From the NCBI GenBank assembly GCA_027483645.1, contig JAIXUD010000009.1, forward strand, positions 428,814 through 492,813: 64,000 nt of DNA, read 5' to 3'. Positions 3,426 through 12,874 of this stretch are shown piece after piece (position 1 is the stretch's first letter; each line of letters opens with the position of its first letter). This DNA comes from Sphingobacteriales bacterium. GTDB taxonomy: Bacteria; Bacteroidota; Bacteroidia; Chitinophagales; CAIOSU01. Position numbers and translations under genes: made by a program. The notes under the pieces are model-generated. The model did not search any database, was not told the origin of the DNA, and worked only from the letters and a program-made list of their open reading frames with translations.

Positions 3426-3709
3426 GGTAAGGAGTGTACTTGAATATTCTGGGAAACAAGAGTTTTGTCGTCCAGGAAGTGAGCATTGGCGTGGGTCTGG
3501 GGAGGGTTTGGGGAGAGAAGATGTAAGGGGTTGATAGCAATGCGTTTGTGTCGAATAATTTATTGTAAAATATTGATTATCATGGTGTTATTTATGTTGT
3601 GTATTCCCCCACCAAGCACAAAACATAGGCAAGAGAGTGACTGAAAAGCATTTCCTTCCCACTTTGGCTCAATTGCTGCACTATCCCATCCCAAATAAAC
3701 TAAACAGCT

Positions 3710-3868
3710 ATGAAAACGCTAAGGATAATATTGCTGGCATTTATAGTATCGGGTGGGCTGGCAAGCTGCACCAGCACTAAAGAAGTGCCCAACCCAGAGG
3801 TGATGCATACACCCGATACTGTCACGCCTACGGATGCTGCAAACGGTACCGCCGCCGCTGCGGAATAG
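3710..3868 (+). CDS. Small lipoprotein (52 aa)
   Basis: This short ORF encodes 52 residues. It starts MKTLRIILLAFIVSGG and has a clear lipobox, LASC, with the lipidated Cys at residue 20. The mature part is only about 33 residues, is rich in Thr, Pro and Ala, and ends TAAAAE. Such a small extracytoplasmic peptide is probably anchored in the inner or outer membrane, but its function cannot be guessed. The gene stands alone: the next feature is a dispersed repeat 27 bp after the stop, and clpP starts 223 bp downstream. The lipobox and signal sequence are the main reason to call it real. Confidence 0.65.
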   Translation: MKTLRIILLAFIVSGGLASCTSTKEVPNPEVMHTPDTVTPTDAANGTAAAAE

Positions 3869-3895
3869 CGGAGGTTTTGGTACATAGTGTGTATG

Positions 3896-3932
3896 CCTCA
3901 CCTAACCTCTCCCAGAGCGAGAGGGACATAAC
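3896..3932 (+). repeat. CCTCACCTAACCTCTCCC repeat, solo arm
   Basis: The sequence CCTCACCTAACCTCTCCC, then AGAGCGAGAGGGACATAAC, matches one arm of the longer inverted-repeat elements at 18088-18331 and 24231-24382. The arm is itself hyphenated-palindromic (CTCTCCC / GAGAGGG). Confidence 0.7.
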
Positions 3933-4091
3933 GCCCATCATCAAACCAGCTACACACCCATACTTTCCCCAACTTGGCCGGCAAATCACATTCTTTTCAG
4001 CAATTTTTTCCAATAACTAATCACTAGTTGCTAATTACTCTTAAATTTAGCGTTCGAAATCATTAATACGCTATTAAAAAGAACCTATAAC

Positions 4092-4691
4092 ATGTATAAA
4101 TTCGAAGACGAAGAAGAGGACCCGAAAGAATCTTTGCTGAACCAGTTTAAGGATTTTGGCCGATTCGATAAAAAATTTCTTGATGAGCGCAAGGTGTTCC
4201 TTTGGGGCCCAGTAACCGACGAAACCAGCAAATATGTGGTGGATCGCCTGCTTTTCTTGGAGACCCAAAAGCCTGGCAAAGAGATTCAACTATTCATCAA
4301 CAGCCCTGGCGGTATTGTTACCAGCGGTATGGTGATGATGGATGTAATGCAAATGATTAGCTCGCCGGTATCTACCATCTGTATGGGCCTCGCTGCCTCT
4401 ATGGGTTCGTTGCTGTTGAGCCAAGGCGAGAAGGGCCGCCGCTTTATTTTCCCTAACGGTAGGGTGATGATTCACCAGCCGAGCATCGGTGGTGCACAAG
4501 GCAGCGCTAGCGACTTGGCCATTACTGCCCGCGAGATAAAGCGTACCAAGGAGCTGGGTGCCCGCATATTGGCCGACAATTGTGGACAGAGCTTCGAGAA
4601 AGTAATGAAAGACTTCGACCGCGATTACTGGATGACCGCGCAAGAATCAATAGAATATGGCATTGTGGACGGTATTTTAGAGAAATTCTAA
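4092..4691 (+). CDS. clpP: ATP-dependent Clp protease proteolytic subunit, stand-alone paralogue
   Basis: This is a serine peptidase of the ClpP family (199 residues, normal length), which forms the tetradecameric chamber used by Clp ATPases. The triad is visible: Ser103 in LAASMGS, His128 in RVMIHQP and Asp178 in FDRDYWM. The INSPGG motif is at residues 70-75. The N-terminus is acidic ([14 protein letters not shown]) and differs from the other ClpP encoded at 14614-15291. The gene is monocistronic, with a strong terminator 32 bp after its stop. It is not next to an ATPase gene, so its partner is unknown; ClpX from the operon at 15303 is the obvious candidate. All catalytic residues are kept, so it should be active alone or as a mixed barrel. 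Confidence 0.93.
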
Positions 4692-4722
4692 AAAACTTTA
4701 GTCACACTGCAACCGATTGAAT

Positions 4723-4758
4723 AAGGTAGTACGTCTATAAGATGTACTACCTTTTTTA
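4723..4758 (+). terminator. Intrinsic terminator of clpP
   Basis: AAGGTAGTACGTC (4723-4735), a TATAA loop, and GATGTACTACCTT (4741-4753) form a 13-bp stem with one G-T pair. A T-rich tail follows. Confidence 0.9.
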
Positions 4759-4773
4759 TTTAAAACCTTTCCT

Positions 4774-5442
4774 ATGAAGCGTTTTACCATCCTATCTTTA
4801 TTGCTGGCTGCGGTGGCCCTTGCGGCATGGGTGCCATTTGATGATGATTATAGCCTGCGCTATGGCAGGTGGAAGAAGCAATATGCCCAACAACAGGTAA
4901 AGGCGCTGAAGGGCGGCACGCTGCTGGTGCGCTTGCATACCCGCACCAAAGCCATAGACTTGTACCGCCAAAACGGCCAGCACGCTATTGCAAACAAAAT
5001 TGAGGACGACCAGTACCAAGAGAACAAGGCCATAGTTGCCGGCTTTAATGAGTACTTTGATTTCGCGAAGGTGTACTTTTTTTATGCCGACGATACGGAT
5101 AAGGTGAAGGCGGGCAACGTGAACGGCGTTTTCCTAAACAACCAAATGAAGCCCGACCCTACTTTAGTGCTAGAGCTGGATACGTTTTTGGTGGCCGAAT
5201 TCGGCCCGCTAGAAGGGGAAACCCGTGTGATACCGGGCGATACGCTGGTGCCCCTGCCCGATTATGTGCAGGGCGAGGTGCTGGAACGGGCGCTGGTGGT
5301 GCGCGACAAGAACTTTATGCAGATGCGCGACCCGTTCCCTTATTATATACGCGGGGCAAACCGCAACAAGCCAGGCAAGCAGATAGCCCGGTTGAACGAC
5401 CAGTTGAATGTATATTATATAAATGCAACCAAACAGCGGTAG
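4774..5442 (+). CDS. Exported protein of unknown function
   Basis: The protein has 222 residues with a signal peptide (MKRFTILSLLLAAVALAAWV). The mature part is mixed alpha/beta with no Cys or membrane segment. It includes GTLLVRLHTRTKAIDLYRQNG (residues 48-68) and a central segment with YFDFAKVYFFYADDTDKVKA. I recognise this general pattern from conserved exported Bacteroidota proteins but cannot name a family. It starts 16 bp after the clpP terminator and is followed after 33 bp by a lipoprotein gene on the same strand, so the two may be co-transcribed. The likely location is the periplasm. Confidence 0.8.
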   Translation: MKRFTILSLLLAAVALAAWVPFDDDYSLRYGRWKKQYAQQQVKALKGGTLLVRLHTRTKAIDLYRQNGQHAIANKIEDDQYQENKAIVAGFNEYFDFAKVYFFYADDTDKVKAGNVNGVFLNNQMKPDPTLVLELDTFLVAEFGPLEGETRVIPGDTLVPLPDYVQGEVLERALVVRDKNFMQMRDPFPYYIRGANRNKPGKQIARLNDQLNVYYINATKQR

Positions 5443-5475
5443 CTGCGTAAGAGGGGGTACTGACCTCTGTACTCT

Positions 5476-5994
5476 ATGAAAGGAACCTGGATTATTATTT
5501 TGAGCGCCCTTGTGGTAATTATGGGCGCTGTAGTGGGCTGCAAAGACGATATGACTTCGGACGAATGCCCAGTACAATATACCGTTGATACCGAAAATAC
5601 TTACTACCTGCATGGCAAATGGCAGTTTGTAGGCTTTTATGATACCGAAACGGGCGAAATAGACCCGCCGCTATGTGGCGTGGTGGAAAGCTGGATTGAG
5701 TTTACTGATAGTACCCACACCCAAACTGGGCAATCGTATAAATACCCTGTGGTTTTCCGCGGCTCGGCATTGATTAATTACTTCTCCGGCTCTTACCTGC
5801 CCGATACGCAGCAACAGCAATTACAAGTTAGCGAGACCGTAAAAACCAAAGTAAACGGCACCCCGCAAGTGGATGATTTTGAGACCCGTTTCCACAACGT
5901 ACTTTCGGGCGTGAAGAGTTACAAGATTGAAAACAACGAGCTTTTCTTGGTGCCTGATTATGGTACCACGCAGTTGCGCTTTGTGGCGATGTAG
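5476..5994 (+). CDS. Lipoprotein, possibly META/HslJ-like
   Basis: A 172-residue lipoprotein: hydrophobic signal and lipobox (VVGC, Cys22), then an acidic linker DDMTSDECP. The mature domain has HGKWQFVGFYDTETGEIDPP near residues 47-66. This resembles the G-x-W-x-L/F opening of META/HslJ and lipocalin-like domains, with further beta strands such as ESWIEFTD and YPVVFRGSALINYF and a final strand TTQLRFVAM. The barrel-like reading is inference. It follows the exported protein at 4774 by 33 bp. Two mature-part cysteines (SDECP and LCGVV) could form a disulphide. Confidence 0.72.
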   Translation: MKGTWIIILSALVVIMGAVVGCKDDMTSDECPVQYTVDTENTYYLHGKWQFVGFYDTETGEIDPPLCGVVESWIEFTDSTHTQTGQSYKYPVVFRGSALINYFSGSYLPDTQQQQLQVSETVKTKVNGTPQVDDFETRFHNVLSGVKSYKIENNELFLVPDYGTTQLRFVAM

Positions 5995-6126
5995 TATTGT
6001 TTGTCTGAATCAGAATTATCAGAATTTGAGAATTATAGAATTCGTTATTGGGTTTTGAATATCCCTATTAACACTACACTACAACATACCTGTTACCAAT
6101 CCGTTTTATCTCTTTAAACGGGGGTA

Positions 6127-6552
6127 ATGATGGGTTATAAATGCTTTCTACTTTTTATAATGGCTGCAGGCTTTGGCTTGTGGCCACAGCTTAGTTTCGG
6201 GCAGGGCCCATTGCCTGATAGGAACGTTTTTTACATTCAGGGCCAAGTGGTTGATACGCTGAATGAAGGTATACCCTTCGCCAATGTATTTACCAAGACG
6301 CCCCTTTGCGGAACATCTACTGATTTTGATGGTTTCTTTGCATTTACGCTACCGCTGGATTCAATTGCGGCTGCTTTATCTAATGGCTATATTGATTTGC
6401 ATGTGCATAGCTTGGGGTATACGGACCAAATAGTTAAAGTGCCGGTTGCTGGAAACAGCCATTATGACACGAAGGTTGTTTTGATACGCGATACGGTTAA
6501 CCCGAAAGTAAAATTTACTATTTGTCGGATACCATTAATCGATAAAAAATAG
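6127..6552 (+). CDS. Secreted CarbopepD-regulatory-like domain protein
   Basis: This 141-residue protein has a signal peptide (MMGYKCFLLFIMAAGFGLWP, cleavage near FGQG). One beta-sandwich domain follows: FYIQGQVVDTLNEGIPFANV, then GTSTDFDGFFAFTLP, then DLHVHSLGYTDQIVKV. This is the pattern of the carboxypeptidase regulatory-like domain found at the N-terminus of TonB-dependent transporters. No barrel or catalytic domain is attached. The stop lies 7 bp before the next gene, which ends in the same kind of domain, so this looks like the first gene of a three-gene set reaching to 8345. The start may be the first or second of two adjacent ATG codons. Confidence 0.75.
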   Translation: MMGYKCFLLFIMAAGFGLWPQLSFGQGPLPDRNVFYIQGQVVDTLNEGIPFANVFTKTPLCGTSTDFDGFFAFTLPLDSIAAALSNGYIDLHVHSLGYTDQIVKVPVAGNSHYDTKVVLIRDTVNPKVKFTICRIPLIDKK

Positions 6553-6559
6553 CCCAGGC

Positions 6560-7372
6560 ATGAAACTCACCCCCATCAACCCACATTTCAATGCCTGCGA
6601 CCAAAAGTGGGAACTAATGCCCGAGCAGGAGCACGGTGGCCGCCTATGCGAAGCTTGTGAGCGGGTGCTGGTGGATTTCACGCAGCTAAGCGAGCAGCAA
6701 ATACTTAATCAACAGCGGGAAAACAATTACAAGCTGTGCGGGCGATATACTAGGAGCCAAGTGGATAGGTTGCCCCGGCACTTGGCAATAGAAGAAAGTA
6801 AAGACCGCAAGCCGTGGTTGGTGGCAATGGCAATGGCCGCCATCGGGCTGGTGCCTGCCATTGCAATGGCACAGGATACTTCTCGGGTACATATACCCGT
6901 AGATTATACCGTGCCGCTTCCTGGGGTTCCTGGCCAAATGCAATATCCTTTGCTGGCGCAAACAGTTGATTCCCTAATACTACATGGAACGGTAGTAAAG
7001 CAAACCGGCGAGCCTATACCGTTCGCAGATATAGTCATTATCGGGGATGATAATGCAATGATTAGATGCACTACCGACGCCAACGGCAGTTATAGCGCCG
7101 CCGTTCCTGTGGCTAATATAAGGCCGAACAATGGGAAGAGGGAAATCTTGATAACGCTTTATTTATATGACCAACAGCAGTATAGCACAGTGATTGATGA
7201 CGGCGGAAACCAGTTTGCTATAGACCTCTTGCTGGATATCACCATTTACTTTATCGTTCCAGCACCTATAACGGAAGTTGGAATGATATCATTACCAAGG
7301 GTTTATAGGCAAACAGACTATCCAAGTCATACTACCATTTGGTATGATCCTTTTACTTGGAGCTGGCCTTAA
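6560..7372 (+). CDS. Cys4 motif - TM - CarbopepD-like protein, paralogue 1
   Basis: The protein has 270 residues in three parts. Residues 1-63 form a cytosolic-looking domain with four cysteines, C13, C30, C33 and C60 (spacing C-x16-C-x2-C-x26-C), plus conserved W17 and DFT at 39-41. Residues 85-104 are a single hydrophobic segment ending AMAQD, like an uncleaved or internal signal. Residues 140-230 carry a CarbopepD-like domain (LILHGTVVKQTGEPIPFADI). I infer a metal- or Fe-S-binding N-terminus inside the cell and a beta-sandwich in the periplasm. The N-terminal 75 residues are almost identical to those of the next gene, at DNA level too, while the C-terminal parts differ strongly. I know similar N-termini from other Bacteroidota proteins but no function for them. 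Confidence 0.8.
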   Translation: MKLTPINPHFNACDQKWELMPEQEHGGRLCEACERVLVDFTQLSEQQILNQQRENNYKLCGRYTRSQVDRLPRHLAIEESKDRKPWLVAMAMAAIGLVPAIAMAQDTSRVHIPVDYTVPLPGVPGQMQYPLLAQTVDSLILHGTVVKQTGEPIPFADIVIIGDDNAMIRCTTDANGSYSAAVPVANIRPNNGKREILITLYLYDQQQYSTVIDDGGNQFAIDLLLDITIYFIVPAPITEVGMISLPRVYRQTDYPSHTTIWYDPFTWSWP

Positions 7373-7418
7373 AAGCGAACAACAATATGCCGCTATTGAC
7401 CAGAACTAAACCGCACTC

Positions 7419-8345
7419 ATGAAACTCACACCCATCAACCCACATTTCAATGCCTGCGACCAAAAGTGGGAGCTAATGCCCGAGCAAGAGCATGGCGGTC
7501 GCCTCTGCGAAACCTGTGAGCGGGTGCTGGTGGATTTCACGCAGCTCAGCGAGCAGCAGGTACTGAATCAACAACGGGATAATAACTTCAAACTTTGCGG
7601 GCGATATACTAGAGGCCAAGTAGATAGGCTGCACAGGCACTTGGCAATGGAAGAGAGCCAGTACAAAAGACCTTGGTTGGTGTCGCTGGCGATAGGCGTG
7701 GGTAGTTTGCTGCCATTGGGTGTGGCTGCACAGGTAGATACCAATGCGCCTGATAGCACCGCGCCTGAGGCCCCAGTTCGCTCGATTCACATGAAAGGGC
7801 TGGCGGAAGAAGTTGTTAATATTGAGGTATTGCAACCTACCGATAAGAAACGGCATCGTAATGAAACGAAACAGGATATCGCCCCAGATTCCATCACTAT
7901 ACCCATCAAGCAATCGGTACCGTTGCCCGGTGTTCCTGGTGCGTTGACATATCCGATACTGGATGTTGTGCGCAGTAACTATATTATTGAAGGCACTGTA
8001 ACCGATAAAGAAACCGGCGAGCCGATAGCCTATGCAAGCATATATAACCCTTATTTGAAAATTGGAACCGTGGCTGACGATGATGGGAAGTTTAGAATTG
8101 AGGCGCCACACGACAGTGCAGTAATAACCATTGCCGCGGGTTTTATTGGCTACGAAGTTAAGGAGATGCAAGTGTTCCTTGGAAAAGAAACCCTCAATCT
8201 AGATATTCAGTTAGAGTCGTCAGTAATGGGTTTAATGGTTGGCGCAGTAATCTATACCAAGCCAAGCTTGAAACAGCGAGTGGCTAATTCTATAAACCCC
8301 GCCCACTGGTACCGTCGCATCAAGCACCTTATAAAGTATCGGTGA
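7419..8345 (+). CDS. Cys4 motif - TM - CarbopepD-like protein, paralogue 2
   Basis: A 308-residue paralogue of the preceding gene. The four cysteines are again C13, C30, C33 and C60, followed by the membrane segment PWLVSLAIGVGSLLPLGVAA (about residues 85-104). A longer linker of about 80 residues is rich in Pro, Thr and Lys. The C-terminal CarbopepD-like domain starts YIIEGTVTDKETGEPIAYAS (about residues 187-265), ends in a typical LDIQLES strand, and is followed by a basic tail (KQRVANS...HLIKYR). A VPLPGVPG motif just before the domain is shared with paralogue 1 and hints at a conserved linker. It lies 46 bp downstream of paralogue 1 on the same strand. The function is unknown. Confidence 0.8.
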   Translation: MKLTPINPHFNACDQKWELMPEQEHGGRLCETCERVLVDFTQLSEQQVLNQQRDNNFKLCGRYTRGQVDRLHRHLAMEESQYKRPWLVSLAIGVGSLLPLGVAAQVDTNAPDSTAPEAPVRSIHMKGLAEEVVNIEVLQPTDKKRHRNETKQDIAPDSITIPIKQSVPLPGVPGALTYPILDVVRSNYIIEGTVTDKETGEPIAYASIYNPYLKIGTVADDDGKFRIEAPHDSAVITIAAGFIGYEVKEMQVFLGKETLNLDIQLESSVMGLMVGAVIYTKPSLKQRVANSINPAHWYRRIKHLIKYR

Positions 8346-8510
8346 GGCTATTCGTAATCATAAATTTAAGGTTTATCCAAAAGTTCTTAACTTGATTGCA
8401 GTTAGGTTTGTTGTTAGGAGAAAGGAGATGGCAAATACCCTCTTGTGTCAAGATACTAAAATCTACAGGCCCGTTAAGCGTAATCGTTTAAAGCAAAATG
8501 CGCACCATAT

Positions 8511-8558
8511 AAGGCTGATAAATATCTAACTTGAATATGGCATAAATTTCGGGATTTA
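8511..8558 (+). repeat. Direct repeat flanking the 8630-11151 gene set, left copy
   Basis: It begins AAGGCTGATAAATATC, has AACTTG, a variable 9-nt stretch, and TAAATTTCGGGATTTAT. The same string with a 10-nt variable stretch occurs at 11218-11266 in the same orientation. TAAAT and ATTTA make the end of each copy palindromic. The rest of the 8346-8629 spacer shows nothing recognisable. Confidence 0.75.
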
Positions 8559-8629
8559 TGGGGAGAATGAGAAGAGGGGCTTTTAATGTTAGTGCTGGCC
8601 ACATGCAGGCTACTCAAAGTATTATACCC

Positions 8630-9841
8630 TTATCCTTGGTTTATCAGCATGTTTTCTATCACTTCATAGGCTGACTCGCAAGCCCCATGAACGGTTGATT
8701 GGTTTTCGATGGTAAGGGCTTCGCCTGCAAAAAACACCTTATCCAGCAATGGTTTCTTTACCTCCGCTACAATATCGCGCTGGCTGCCGTCAAATGTGTA
8801 CGAATAAGCCCCTTGGATGTAAGGCTCTGCCGACCAGTTTTGAATAACGTGCTTCACATAGTTTTTTGATGCTTTGCCCTCAAATATTTCATCTAGCTCG
8901 GCTATAAATTTATTAATGATTTCGGCTTCGGTTGTTAACTGGGCATAGGGCGTTGCCTTTTCGTTAATAGCAAAAAGTGCCAGAATATGTTTTGTAGTGT
9001 CTTTGCCGAATGCCGCATCATATACATACTTTTCATCGCTGCTTAATGCTTGTATCATAGTACCAAAACCCAAAATATCAGGATAAAACCGCTCCTTGAA
9101 CTCCACAAAAATCTTAATGCCATCGCCCATATAAATGCGGTTGATAGCGTCGGTTTTGCTAGCGGGCAACATGGGGCTGAACTCGATTAGTCGATTTTGA
9201 AGGATTTTTATGGGAGCGGTTACCAGCACTTTATCCGCTTCATAGGTTTCGTTTTTTGCGGTTTTCATTACCACCCGCTCACCACTATAATCAATTTCAA
9301 CAATGGGCTTATTGTATATAATTTGGCTCTGTACGTGTGGCAAAATGTATTGCTCAAAGTAGCTGTGCCAAGTAGTGTTCTTAAATTTCCATTCGCTGTA
9401 AAAATGGCTTACATAGTTGTGTGCCTTTAGTTTGCCATTGTTCCATGACTTTATCGTTTGTGGATTGTAAAGAATAATATCGATGTTGGCCTTTACATCC
9501 GGATTGTTGATGATGTCCGCCAAAATGGAAGGATCGATATGTATCCACTCCGCACCGGTATCAATAGGGAAGTCGGCAAAGCCATCAACCCTTTTTACCC
9601 TACCCCCAAATACAGGCGCCGCTTCAATAATCTCAAACTCCACGCCATATCTTGATAATAGGTAGCCAGCCGCCAAACCGGCCGCCCCGGCGCCCACAAT
9701 AATCACTTTGCCCGAAAAATTGGTTTTGAATTTCGGGAAAATGGAATCATCCTTACTGCACGATTCCAGCAAAAGCGTAGAAAGAAATGGGAAACCAATG
9801 CCCAACGCTAAGGCATTTTTGATAAACTCTTTCCTAGTCAT
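8630..9841 (-). CDS. Flavin monoamine oxidase family protein, exported
   Basis: A 403-residue FAD-dependent amine oxidase. The Rossmann motif is VGAGAAGLAAG at residues 49-59, with Glu73 placed to bind the ribose, GGR at 79-81, and the C-terminal FAD motif FAGEA near 372-376. Family members oxidise primary or polyamine-type amines to aldehydes with release of ammonia and peroxide; the substrate here is unknown. The N-terminus (MTRKEFIKNALALGIGFPFL) looks Tat-like but has a single Arg, and LESC at residues 25-28 could be a degenerate lipobox, so a periplasmic or lipid-anchored enzyme is likely. Its start overlaps the stop of the upstream gene at 9834-10418 by 8 bp, indicating translational coupling. 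Confidence 0.88.
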   Translation of the reverse strand: MTRKEFIKNALALGIGFPFLSTLLLESCSKDDSIFPKFKTNFSGKVIIVGAGAAGLAAGYLLSRYGVEFEIIEAAPVFGGRVKRVDGFADFPIDTGAEWIHIDPSILADIINNPDVKANIDIILYNPQTIKSWNNGKLKAHNYVSHFYSEWKFKNTTWHSYFEQYILPHVQSQIIYNKPIVEIDYSGERVVMKTAKNETYEADKVLVTAPIKILQNRLIEFSPMLPASKTDAINRIYMGDGIKIFVEFKERFYPDILGFGTMIQALSSDEKYVYDAAFGKDTTKHILALFAINEKATPYAQLTTEAEIINKFIAELDEIFEGKASKNYVKHVIQNWSAEPYIQGAYSYTFDGSQRDIVAEVKKPLLDKVFFAGEALTIENQSTVHGACESAYEVIENMLINQG

Positions 9842-10418
9842 GCCTTTCGTTTTTGTATTTTAAGTTGATAAGAATACCTGTGGAGAAACCAATGAAAGCC
9901 GTGTTGACGGCACCGAACCGGAGTTGCCTGCCGTAGTATGCCTTAAAAAAGAAACCAATCGCTGTGCGTGGGGCCACACCAAAGCCTAAGCTCATGTTCG
10001 GTACGAAACTATGTAACTGCTTATATCGATAGTCAATTTCGCCCGTGCCCAGGTTTAATATGCCATCTTGCTTTTTGAAAGTGAGCTGGTATCCAGCTCC
10101 TACCGCTGCCAAAAGGAAAAACCGCTTATCCTGTTTCTGCCATTTGTATAACAATTCCGGATTAAAAAGTACATTATGTGATACCCTTGGCTGATGGTAG
10201 TAAGCTACCTGCGGCAGCAACTGCAAGCTATGGGTCTTGTTTCGTTTGTTCGGTGGGGTTCTTTCCCAAGTCTTTAACGTAAAGGCATACCCCACGGTGC
10301 CACCAATGTTAGTAAAATATGGGCCGATGTACCCTACATGCAACGTATTATCCGCTTTTTGGGCGAAAAGGCTGCCACTAAGTAGCAAGGTAATTATAAG
10401 CCCCAATAGTGTTTTCAT
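9834..10418 (-). CDS. Small outer-membrane beta-barrel-like protein
   Basis: A 194-residue protein with a cleavable signal peptide (MKTLLGLIITLLLSGSLFAQ). The mature part alternates aromatic and polar residues in short strands such as THSLQLLPQVAYYHQ, RFFLLAAVGAGYQLTF and MSLGFGVAPRTAIGFFFKAYY, ending STGILINLKYKN. That is the look of a small eight-strand barrel. The family is not recognised. It is the upstream partner of the amine oxidase (8-bp overlap) and lies 163 bp downstream of the Crp-like regulator, all on the minus strand. A role in passage or sensing of the oxidase substrate is only a guess. Confidence 0.72.
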   Translation of the reverse strand: MKTLLGLIITLLLSGSLFAQKADNTLHVGYIGPYFTNIGGTVGYAFTLKTWERTPPNKRNKTHSLQLLPQVAYYHQPRVSHNVLFNPELLYKWQKQDKRFFLLAAVGAGYQLTFKKQDGILNLGTGEIDYRYKQLHSFVPNMSLGFGVAPRTAIGFFFKAYYGRQLRFGAVNTAFIGFSTGILINLKYKNERHD

Positions 10419-10581
10419 CGGTTGTATTTTGATGATCCTTTAGCCCATAACGTTATTAATCATTAATCAAGTATGGCTCCAGCTTCCGAGCTTTGGATAC
10501 CATGGGTTGCTGGTATTTGATATAATGATTGGGTAAAGATAAACAGCCAAAATTGATGCCCATTTGATTTATGTCACAAAA

Positions 10582-11151
10582 TCATTTGGCCCGCAGGCGA
10601 CTGAGCGTTTCGCGAGAAATACCTAAGAAGGAAGCGATATAGGTTAAGGGCACGCGCCTGAACACATTGGGTTCTTGGGCCAATAAAGCGGTGTACCGCT
10701 CCCGTGCCGACCGTAAGTGCGTATAGTACAGCTTATCTTCCAGATACAGGCAGTACTCGCCAATAACTTGGTTGATGAAATTGGAAATCTCAATATTCTC
10801 CGCCATGAGCGGCTTGATGCCGTTGATGTTGAACGATAGCAGGGTGCTATCTTCCAGCAGTTCAATCGTTTCTCTCGATGGCAGGTTGTTGTAGTTTCGC
10901 AACGACCCTACCATCTCGTTTTCAAAAGCGAACCAACTGTTTATTTCCATACCGTTGTGTAGGTAGTAACTTCGGGCCGCGCCCTTAACCAGTAGATAGG
11001 CATATCCACTGTTGTGGTTCGCCTTTATCAGTTCATATTTTTTAGGATGGTGCAATACTTTCACATTAGGCATCAGCAACCCGATTGCCGTCTCGGTCAA
11101 TCTGGGCCTATACCTTTCAAAGAAAGCATCAACCATGTCTACACTATCCAC
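10582..11151 (-). CDS. Crp/Fnr family transcriptional regulator
   Basis: A 189-residue cytoplasmic regulator. Residues 20-120 fit a cyclic-nucleotide-binding-like beta-roll (YELIKANHNSGYAYLLVKGA, then MEINSWFAFENEMVGSLRNY). The C-terminus carries the compact helix-turn-helix usual in Bacteroidota members: ARERYTALLAQEPNVFRRVP, then LTYIASFLGISRETLSRLR. No Fnr-type cysteine cluster is seen, so it is not an Fe-S oxygen sensor; the ligand is unknown. It is encoded upstream of the small barrel and amine oxidase genes on the same strand, so it may control them. The predicted length is normal for this subgroup. Confidence 0.9.
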   Translation of the reverse strand: MDSVDMVDAFFERYRPRLTETAIGLLMPNVKVLHHPKKYELIKANHNSGYAYLLVKGAARSYYLHNGMEINSWFAFENEMVGSLRNYNNLPSRETIELLEDSTLLSFNINGIKPLMAENIEISNFINQVIGEYCLYLEDKLYYTHLRSARERYTALLAQEPNVFRRVPLTYIASFLGISRETLSRLRAK

Positions 11152-11217
11152 TAGTATTAATTTAGAGGTGTTCCTTAAGCAAGTCCTAGTGTTTTATACA
11201 CGCACCCAGCGCTTTGC

Positions 11218-11266
11218 AAGGCTGATAAATATCAAACTTGCCCGTGGGGGTAAATTTCGGGATTTA
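11218..11266 (+). repeat. Direct repeat flanking the 8630-11151 gene set, right copy
   Basis: AAGGCTGATAAATATC, AACTTG and TAAATTTCGGGATTTAT are kept exactly as in 8511-8558; only the middle 9-10 nt and flanks differ. It lies just upstream of the leftward regulator gene. Confidence 0.75.
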
Positions 11267-11375
11267 TTGCGGAAATTAGGAGCGAGGCTCAGCCTCTTAC
11301 CTCCAGGGCTGCGAAAGTATAACGTCCACAGAGTGGCGGGTATTATTGATGCTACAAAGAACCGCGACCAACATA

Positions 11376-11405
11376 TTTGAAATTAAAAAACAAACAGTAA
11401 TTTTA
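11376..11405 (+). promoter_or_regulatory. Promoter of the 11423 T9SS cargo gene
   Basis: TTTG (11376-11379), an 18-nt A-rich spacer and TAATTTTA (11398-11405) fit the Bacteroidota consensus. The ATG follows 17 nt later. This supports the start at 11423 rather than a TTG nine bases upstream. Confidence 0.6.
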
Positions 11406-11422
11406 GGGGTAAATTGCTAGTT

Positions 11423-12874
11423 ATGAAACAACTATACACTGCATTGCTTATAGCTTTTACACTTGGGGAGCTTGTGGCGCAGCAGCCAACCGAAACCAAT
11501 GTGCTCAATTCTAGATTGATTGCTTACAATACCGAAAAATGGACTTCGGGAAATTGGGTGGAGCAAGATTCCAACTTTTTAGTCTATTCCGGTACCCGGG
11601 GAGGTGAATTGGTAAATGGCACTTTGGAAGCTGACTTTGATACCCGCCAAACTTGGTATTGGCAAAATGGTACGCCCACCAACACCAATCTTTATGAAAA
11701 CACCTACGATGCCGAAAACCGATTGACCCAAGAGGTAGTAAAAGAATGGGTAAACGGTGCCTGGATCAACGCTAGCAGGGAAACGAATACTTATGGGCCT
11801 TTTGGCATAACGAATTTTCTTTTGGAAGAGTGGGACGGCAGCGCTTGGGTAGGCGCCTATAGGCTTAGTTACACTTTTGATGCTAATGGCAACCAAACAA
11901 GCGGTCAACGCGACAATTGGAGCGGCAGTATGTGGGTAGGTAGCACAAAAACTATCTCAACCTACGATGCCGACAACCAGAGGATAGTTAAGGTAACCCA
12001 AAATTTTGTGTCGAATAACTGGAGGAACCAAAGCCGCGACAGCTACACGTACGATACAGCGGGCAATATCGTAATTGCAACTTACGAAAGCTGGAATATC
12101 GGAAGCAATATATGGCAGTTTTCATCAAGAGCTTTTTTGACTTACACCGCAACGGGCCAACTAGAGACCGATTTGAGCCAAGAATATAACAATGGTAACT
12201 GGGAGGATGATACCCGCCAAACATGGACTTACAACGGGCAGGGATACCTAACCCGCAATCTAAAAGAAGCATACGCCAGCGGTACCTGGCAAAACACACA
12301 ACGAACCGACTACACGCCTAATAGCCTTGGTTTGTTTACGGAAACTATAAGGTATACATGGACTAACGCTACTTGGAACGAAAGCACCCGCACGCAAAGC
12401 ACCTTTGATGCGGCTGGGAATATTATAACCAGTTTTAGCAGTAACTACGTTTCTGGTGCTTGGAACGACCAGTACTACTTTGTTTTTACCTACAACGCCT
12501 TTAACCAACGGGTTACTCAAGTATTCCAAGAAAACTTCGGCACTGGGCTGGAAAACAATACCCGTACGTTTTATTATTATGACACATACGAGGATGGCAC
12601 ATCGGGCATTACAACACTGCCTACGCTGTCATCAATGGTATTACCAAACCCGTTCACCATCAATGTAGCCATACAATTGGAGGTAACCGAGGCAGGCAGC
12701 CATACGTTTGAGGTGTATAACATGGCTGGCCAGCGGGTGCACACCGAGAGCCGCCACCTAGCACCCGGCCTACAAACTATAGTATGGGATGGGCAGCAAG
12801 TGCCCCAAGGAGTGTACTTTTATAAAATAAATACCCAAAGCGGCTTAGCCAGCGGAAGGTTGATAAAGCAATAA
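11423..12874 (+). CDS. T9SS type A cargo with tandem Trp-rich repeats
   Basis: A 483-residue secreted protein starting MKQLYTALLIAFTLGELVAQ. From about residue 30 to 395 it holds roughly twelve repeats of 34-40 residues, each with a W/Y-x2-G/N-x-W core and a following Y-T/D-Y/F element; examples are KEWVNGAWINASRE, DNWSGSMWVGSTK and QEYNNGNWEDDTRQ. Many repeats contain D-A-x-G-N, which recalls YD/RHS repeats, so a beta-rich spiral is plausible. The C-terminal 75 residues (VLPNPF...MAGQRV...GVYFYKI...GRLIKQ) are a type A sorting domain, directing export by the type IX system and attachment at the cell surface. It is monocistronic with its own promoter. The exact function is unknown. Confidence 0.85.
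   Translation: MKQLYTALLIAFTLGELVAQQPTETNVLNSRLIAYNTEKWTSGNWVEQDSNFLVYSGTRGGELVNGTLEADFDTRQTWYWQNGTPTNTNLYENTYDAENRLTQEVVKEWVNGAWINASRETNTYGPFGITNFLLEEWDGSAWVGAYRLSYTFDANGNQTSGQRDNWSGSMWVGSTKTISTYDADNQRIVKVTQNFVSNNWRNQSRDSYTYDTAGNIVIATYESWNIGSNIWQFSSRAFLTYTATGQLETDLSQEYNNGNWEDDTRQTWTYNGQGYLTRNLKEAYASGTWQNTQRTDYTPNSLGLFTETIRYTWTNATWNESTRTQSTFDAAGNIITSFSSNYVSGAWNDQYYFVFTYNAFNQRVTQVFQENFGTGLENNTRTFYYYDTYEDGTSGITTLPTLSSMVLPNPFTINVAIQLEVTEAGSHTFEVYNMAGQRVHTESRHLAPGLQTIVWDGQQVPQGVYFYKINTQSGLASGRLIKQ

Follow-up and report, generated by a model that had tools for sequence, protein, structure and literature searches.

A predicted signal peptide with a four-cysteine cytosolic head in tandem CarbopepD-like genes and their relatives in Bacteroidota

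Extended signal peptides are known. The extended signal peptide region (ESPR, PF13018) is a conserved N-terminal extension located before a segment similar to an ordinary signal peptide; it is shared across different passengers and, in EspP, has been proposed to slow export (PMC8151025, PMC2805444). In Gram-positive bacteria, the conserved motif of the YSIRK/GXXS signal peptides adds septal secretion to Sec export (PMC5962339). Here we analyse a 64,000-nucleotide stretch of a Sphingobacteriales bacterium genome (GCA_027483645.1, contig JAIXUD010000009.1, positions 428,814 to 492,813; hereafter the window, to which all coordinates refer). It carries two tandem genes, gene A (6560) and gene B (7419), preceded by a related gene at 6127. 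The products of genes A and B begin with a domain bearing four cysteines, the head, followed by a hydrophobic segment and a CarbopepD-like part, the cargo. Judging from sequence, this hydrophobic segment most likely functions as a cleavable signal peptide and the four-cysteine domain as its folded cytosolic head, the two together comprising about 104 residues. As far as our searches reach, a signal peptide with a folded four-cysteine domain ahead of signal peptidase I, signal peptidase II and type IX cargo is apparently undescribed, and among open-licence articles, judged by title and the start of the abstract, none was found that describes the head.

Like the ESPR, the four-cysteine head is a conserved extension ahead of a segment resembling a signal peptide, with varied proteins behind it. 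However, the ESPR is about 25 residues long and belongs to type V secretion, whereas the head comprises 70-80 residues, is predicted to fold, has four near-invariant cysteines and occurs in Bacteroidota ahead of signal peptidase I, signal peptidase II and type IX cargo. The ESPR family was absent from the 15 Pfam families matched by 37 heads (E<=0.1) and from the 22 families matched by 150 full-length proteins (E<=0.001), and type V passenger or beta-barrel domains are not among the frequent cargo, which is CarbopepD, TonB_C and Por_Secre_tail instead. The YSIRK/GXXS element, which the head would resemble in being conserved within a signal peptide and adding a trafficking function, is a short motif of Gram-positive surface proteins with no separate cysteine domain. 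The CarboxypepD_reg-like families (PF13715 and PF13620), to which the cargo of genes 6127 and 7419 belongs, do not include the head, and in gene 6127 the domain follows an ordinary signal peptide. The features concerned are as follows, with a slash marking the predicted cut.

6560..7372, + strand: gene A, whole open reading frame (ORF), 270 amino acids
6560..6799, + strand: four-cysteine head of gene A, codons 1-80 (C13, C30, C33, C60; W17; M20; D39-F40-T41)
6812..6871, + strand: hydrophobic core and predicted signal peptidase I site of gene A (A102-M103-A104/Q105)
6872..7372, + strand: cargo of gene A, predicted to be exported; weak CarbopepD-like match at residues 141-186
7419..8345, + strand: gene B, whole ORF, 308 amino acids
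7419..7658, + strand: four-cysteine head of gene B, codons 1-80, seen in the sequence and in an AlphaFold2 model of residues 1-109
7671..7730, + strand: hydrophobic core and predicted signal peptidase I site of gene B (V102-A103-A104/Q105)
7731..8345, + strand: cargo of gene B, predicted to be exported; CarbopepD_reg_2 domain at residues 190-271 (bases 7986-8231)
6127..6552, + strand: headless CarbopepD-like gene, 141 amino acids, with an ordinary-looking signal peptide that ends, by eye, in SFG/Q

Homologues of the head were collected as 334 frames from 244 loci, some of them representing one gene in overlapping loci. Coverage was sufficient for 333 of these, which clustered at 60% identity into 180; removal of two short frames lacking a hydrophobic segment (L121 and L237) and of 18 frames from the set described next left 160 diverse homologues. 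A scan of named genomes had yielded 460 relatives among 477 matching stretches, and the best 80, representing 77 loci, were retained as the 77-locus set; by title these come from Flavobacterium, three Flavobacteriaceae and one [Flexibacter].

The hydrophobic segment ends in a lipobox in 54 of the 160 homologues and in an AxA-type signal peptidase I site in 72, giving 126 with a cleavage motif. Identical patterns were found in 34 and 49, respectively, of 173 ordinary N-terminal hydrophobic segments from neighbour and window ORFs, and in 11 and 17 of 285 internal segments (126/160 versus 28/285, Fisher p ~2e-50). Shuffling the 18 residues of each protein gave 36.0 +/- 5.1 matches of 160, with a maximum of 51 in 500 rounds, and the excess is restricted to the end of the core. 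On reading, the homologues often end in A-x-A/Q or in a lipobox such as LFSC, and after residue 104 the window proteins show AMA/Q (6560) and VAA/Q (7419). The lipobox is kept in 131 of the 133 head proteins of the 77-locus set, the exceptions being one short frame and one protein without the cysteine. Taken as architecture, a cleavable signal peptide in the head proteins appears highly probable to us. The mature N-terminus directly after the lipobox cysteine of L038-L114 often reads C-[QA]-D-K-[DEN]-G, which resembles, but differs from, the lipoprotein export signals given in PMC5080379.

The cargo provides a second line of evidence. Of the 160 homologues, 158 are usable (two contain X), and 150 of these were scanned. 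CarbopepD_reg_2 (PF13715) was detected in 63 and CarboxypepD_reg in 53, in overlapping sets, followed by TonB_C (17), Por_Secre_tail (10), Plug (2) and CHU_C (1). The CHU_C match (L171) lies in a protein that also bears Por_Secre_tail, so the type IX proteins number 10 and not 11. Release from the inner membrane is obligatory for proteins bearing a type IX sorting domain; their presence among 10 of 150 head proteins thus fits a cleaved signal and does not fit an anchor. A sequence pattern for the tail picked 12 frames, one of them (L224) a chance match. Among the other 11, L171 and L187 have a lipobox, L117 and L132 have only a looser cleavage pattern, and L201 and L220 contain X; the nine of these 11 that were scanned all score above the Pfam cut-off of 27 bits. 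Viewed singly, these nine Por_Secre_tail proteins show the strict cleavage pattern in seven cases and the looser one in two. A crude CarbopepD pattern is unevenly distributed across the cleavage classes (33/72 AxA-type, 14/33 looser-pattern, 0/1 without a pattern and 4/54 lipobox proteins), so cargo and exit route seem linked.

These observations bear on the preliminary description of the locus, which had seen a permanent anchor: a cytosolic metal- or Fe-S-type switch coupled across the membrane to a periplasmic beta-sandwich. Such an anchor would agree with the topology indicated by charge, the near-invariant cysteines and the predicted fold of the head (all presented below), and the length of the core is compatible with it. 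Nevertheless, the frequency of signal peptidase motifs (126/160 versus 28/285 internal segments), the lipobox cysteine kept in 131/133 heads of the 77-locus set, the type IX sorting domains in 10/150 proteins and a cargo too divergent for conserved coupling make it distinctly improbable. Given the motifs and the type IX domains, export is probably followed by separation of the head from the beta-sandwich, and the lasting transmembrane link was not borne out.

The cysteines of the head, present at positions 13, 30, 33 and 60 in both window genes as first described, are strongly conserved: the four columns hold cysteine in 158, 159, 159 and 160 of the 160 homologues, the remainder being gaps, an invariance that is partly built in since the profile favours such sequences. 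Other columns hold W in 145, M in 144 and D in 155. One short frame (L237), excluded from the 160, has the fourth cysteine changed to serine. Beyond these positions gene 7419 encodes no cysteine and gene 6560 a single one, at residue 170. In 126 of 160 homologues the sequence before the hydrophobic core carries a higher net charge than the sequence after it; the two are equal in 19, and the order is reversed in 15 (means +1.93 before and -0.29 after). This supports the earlier placement of the four-cysteine domain in the cytosol. An AlphaFold2 model of residues 1-109 of gene 7419, computed with 134 rows, has a mean pLDDT (predicted local distance difference test score) of 71, with block means of 78-92 over residues 11-80. 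It comprises strands at 27-30, 35-39 and 60-62 and helices at 45-54 and 65-83; a Flavobacterium head gave a nearly identical order of elements with a mean pLDDT of 77, and a folded head domain is thus predicted in both. A 107-residue stand-alone relative annotated as a hypothetical protein is encoded on a Calothrix brevissima plasmid (AP018211.1, L245:2947-3270). It shares 40% identity over 70 residues with the divergent L226 head and, by eye, has no hydrophobic segment, which supports the head as an autonomous, soluble cytosolic domain.

In the 7419 model, C30 ends the first strand, C33 lies in the hairpin turn and C60 starts a strand. Such placement of cysteines at a hairpin resembles zinc knuckles, and the modelled head is probably stabilised by zinc. 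No convincing family was found for the head in Pfam and NCBIfam. Maf-like matches were weak (3 of 37 members; best values 0.00085 with NCBIfam and 0.002 with Pfam) and were attributed to chance, and HMGB1, the best PDB sequence match (E 0.022), was rejected because only 19 residues align and the CxxC lies outside them. Fold searches with two head models gave no match at E<=0.001. In a second fold comparison, the first model reached a best Z of 2.1, with 3 of 77 chains at Z>=2, and the second model had none of 35 at Z>=2. The lists for the first model include chains that we take to be a ribosomal zinc-ribbon protein (E 5.6-7.9, Z 2.1), and these were not used as evidence. A zinc or Fe-S domain of this kind could also act as a metal- or redox-loaded gate that permits or stops Sec export according to the state of the cytosol, with a remnant that may report back; we consider this version doubtful.

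Over their first 75 codons, genes 6560 and 7419 share 92% of residues and 88% of nucleotides, whereas identity drops to 27% in protein and 43% in DNA over aligned codons 111-270, in agreement with the near-identical starts and diverged C-terminal parts reported at the outset. Per block of 15 codons, DNA identity is 98% in the first (6560-6604 versus 7419-7463) and 78-93% in codons 16-75. The shared 75 codons show a synonymous divergence (Ks) of 0.63 and a non-synonymous divergence (Ka) of 0.034 (Ka/Ks ~0.05); in the cargo parts synonymous change is saturated. Because Ks is this high while Ka is low, the likeness of the two heads is likely better explained by strong purifying selection, to which older gene conversion may have added, than by the recent duplication first proposed; of that proposal, only gene conversion stands, as a possibility and at an older date. 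In 77 Flavobacterium orthologues, head and cargo show about the same variation at four-fold (synonymous) sites. It is therefore the protein that is under selection in these orthologues, and a constraint at the RNA level is rejected for them.

The pattern extends well beyond the window. Outside the 77-locus set, head identity exceeds cargo identity in all 26 tandem pairs, from 22 loci (medians 0.62 versus 0.29; 88 adjacent pairs before duplicates were merged, one excluded with a cargo under 30 residues). Within the set it does so in 55/55 pairs from 40 loci (medians 0.76 versus 0.31), which come from related species and hence are not independent. The constant head and changing cargo of the window, compared at the level of sequence, are one case of a general rule. 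Frequent tandem copies (these 26 pairs), the occurrence of broken copies and a patchy presence (at least 55 of 395 genomes) would also be expected if the head were a neutral fusion at the N-terminus that spread through tandem duplication and gene conversion. We find this barely credible, as a Ka/Ks of ~0.05 with a Ks of 0.63 and near-invariant cysteines indicate that the protein is selected.

Strong protein-level selection on the head, its higher conservation than the cargo in 81/81 tandem pairs and the existence of a stand-alone relative would also suit a cleaved membrane remnant of about 104 residues that keeps a job of its own, as a signal or after being cut further, and reports export status or metal or redox state to the cytosol. 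This seems unlikely to us: nothing points to a stable remnant, no widely conserved partner gene was seen within ~2 kb of the heads, and a gene resembling an extracytoplasmic function (ECF) sigma factor clusters with them at only three loci. Among the 25 neighbour clusters listed, the larger ones occur mainly among related genomes (tadA-like and dxs-like by eye) or are seemingly joined via TonB_C. The ECF sigma-like gene, named by eye, adjoins heads at L117, L212 and L237, where it is divergent and has a membrane-protein gene of its own alongside.

That gene, together with the general layout, raises the possibility that the head proteins are membrane proteins like the zinc-binding anti-sigma (ZAS) ones, whose head holds an ECF sigma factor. 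Both have a cytosolic cysteine motif, one hydrophobic segment and a variable periplasmic part; ZAS membrane proteins have a different Cys/His pattern, an uncut anchor and a sigma gene as partner. An anti-sigma role is very improbable here, given that no anti-sigma family (zf-HC2/ZAS) is among the 15 Pfam families matched by heads or the 22 matched by full proteins at the thresholds above, that the sigma-like gene is limited to three loci and is divergent with its own membrane-protein neighbour, and that no sigma factor gene was seen among the ORFs at window positions 3500-11500.

Within the window, the gaps between the ORFs 6127-6552, 6560-7372 and 7419-8345 are 7 and 46 bases, and the three genes form a probable operon with 6127 first. 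The CarbopepD-like domain described earlier is confirmed for gene 7419 (PF13715, 55.4 bits, E=6.4e-15; Pfam gathering cut-off 32.2) and for the headless gene 6127 (40.8 bits, E=2.3e-10). Gene 6560 remains just under the cut-off for PF13620 (31.1 bits versus 32.3, E=3e-7) and scores 20.4 versus 32.2 for PF13715. The type IX sorting domain Por_Secre_tail (PF18962) was not matched in the window proteins at E<=1. Directly upstream of the three genes, at 5476-5994, is a META-domain protein (PF03724, 34.9 bits, cut-off 24) with a lipobox-like start, and the C-terminus of a repeat protein at 11414-12874 resembles a type IX sorting tail by eye.

In the genome that holds the window, only genes 6560 and 7419 carry the head (search at E<=0.001), and three of six other genomes searched from the same family carry one or two. 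That such N-termini occur in other Bacteroidota, as first stated, is confirmed. Within the class, a six-head profile (E<=0.001) detected the head in 73 of 247 genomes sampled, representing 46 of 136 genera. In the phylum as a whole, a 37-head profile (E<=0.0001) detected it in at least 55 of 395 genomes, including six outside the class; with 15 candidates scored in nearly every genome listed, this may be an undercount. The search outside Bacteroidota returned no phage match to the head; similar proteins are presumably present in myxobacteria. Several frames look broken or short (L237, L121, L111, L097, L145 and L230), and some of them adjoin intact tandem copies; head arrays seem to gain and lose members. 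On an Aureibacter plasmid (L246:2998-4451), a gene with a full head is followed by an annotated frame that starts inside the head and then by transglutaminase and alpha-2-macroglobulin genes.

We propose that the products of genes 6560 and 7419 are precursors of CarbopepD-like proteins destined for export, with a signal peptide that bears a folded four-cysteine cytosolic head of about 70-80 residues. The head would fold in the cytosol around zinc, Sec would export the precursor and a peptidase would cut after residue 104. The cargo would thereby reach the periplasm, or in relatives also take a lipoprotein or type IX route, while the head and hydrophobic segment would stay in the inner membrane and then be degraded. 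Our guess is that the head sets the timing or route of export, as the ESPR may do. Given the cleavable architecture, and argued by analogy, such an export-control role is slightly favoured over its absence.

Several points weigh against this proposal. The strict cleavage patterns fail in 34 of 160 homologues, 33 of which have a looser one and one none, and L226 has no convincing cleavage motif. The patterns were written after examples had been seen, which flatters the head set somewhat, we infer not by this much; the control genes are mechanical ORFs, and core length gives no separation of signal peptides from anchors. Zinc binding is suggested by the cysteine pattern and a predicted hairpin, and searches of Pfam, NCBIfam, PDB and folds returned no fold or sequence relative that hints at a ligand of the head. 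No widely conserved neighbour was found within ~2 kb of the heads (genes >=100 amino acids, 77-locus set excluded). The ESPR-like role would be one of analogy, and PMC8151025 reports that removal of the ESPR changes little for Pet, FhaB and Hbp, that Pet without it is still efficiently secreted and that it has little role in the choice of targeting pathway. Taking both sides together, we assign a probability of roughly 0.6 to the combined statement that these proteins have a cleavable signal peptide with a four-cysteine export-control head, the role being the best-guess part of it.

Signal peptides tend to be regarded as short, simple elements. A head of this kind, not described in the domain libraries used and found ahead of signal peptidase I, lipoprotein and type IX cargo, points to a possible layer of control over export. 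Since the hydrophobic segment lies about 85 residues or more from the start, proteins of this kind may be misread as membrane-anchored sensors. If the head does act as an export gate, the signal peptide itself would contain a post-translational switch, reused in tandem arrays with exchangeable cargo.

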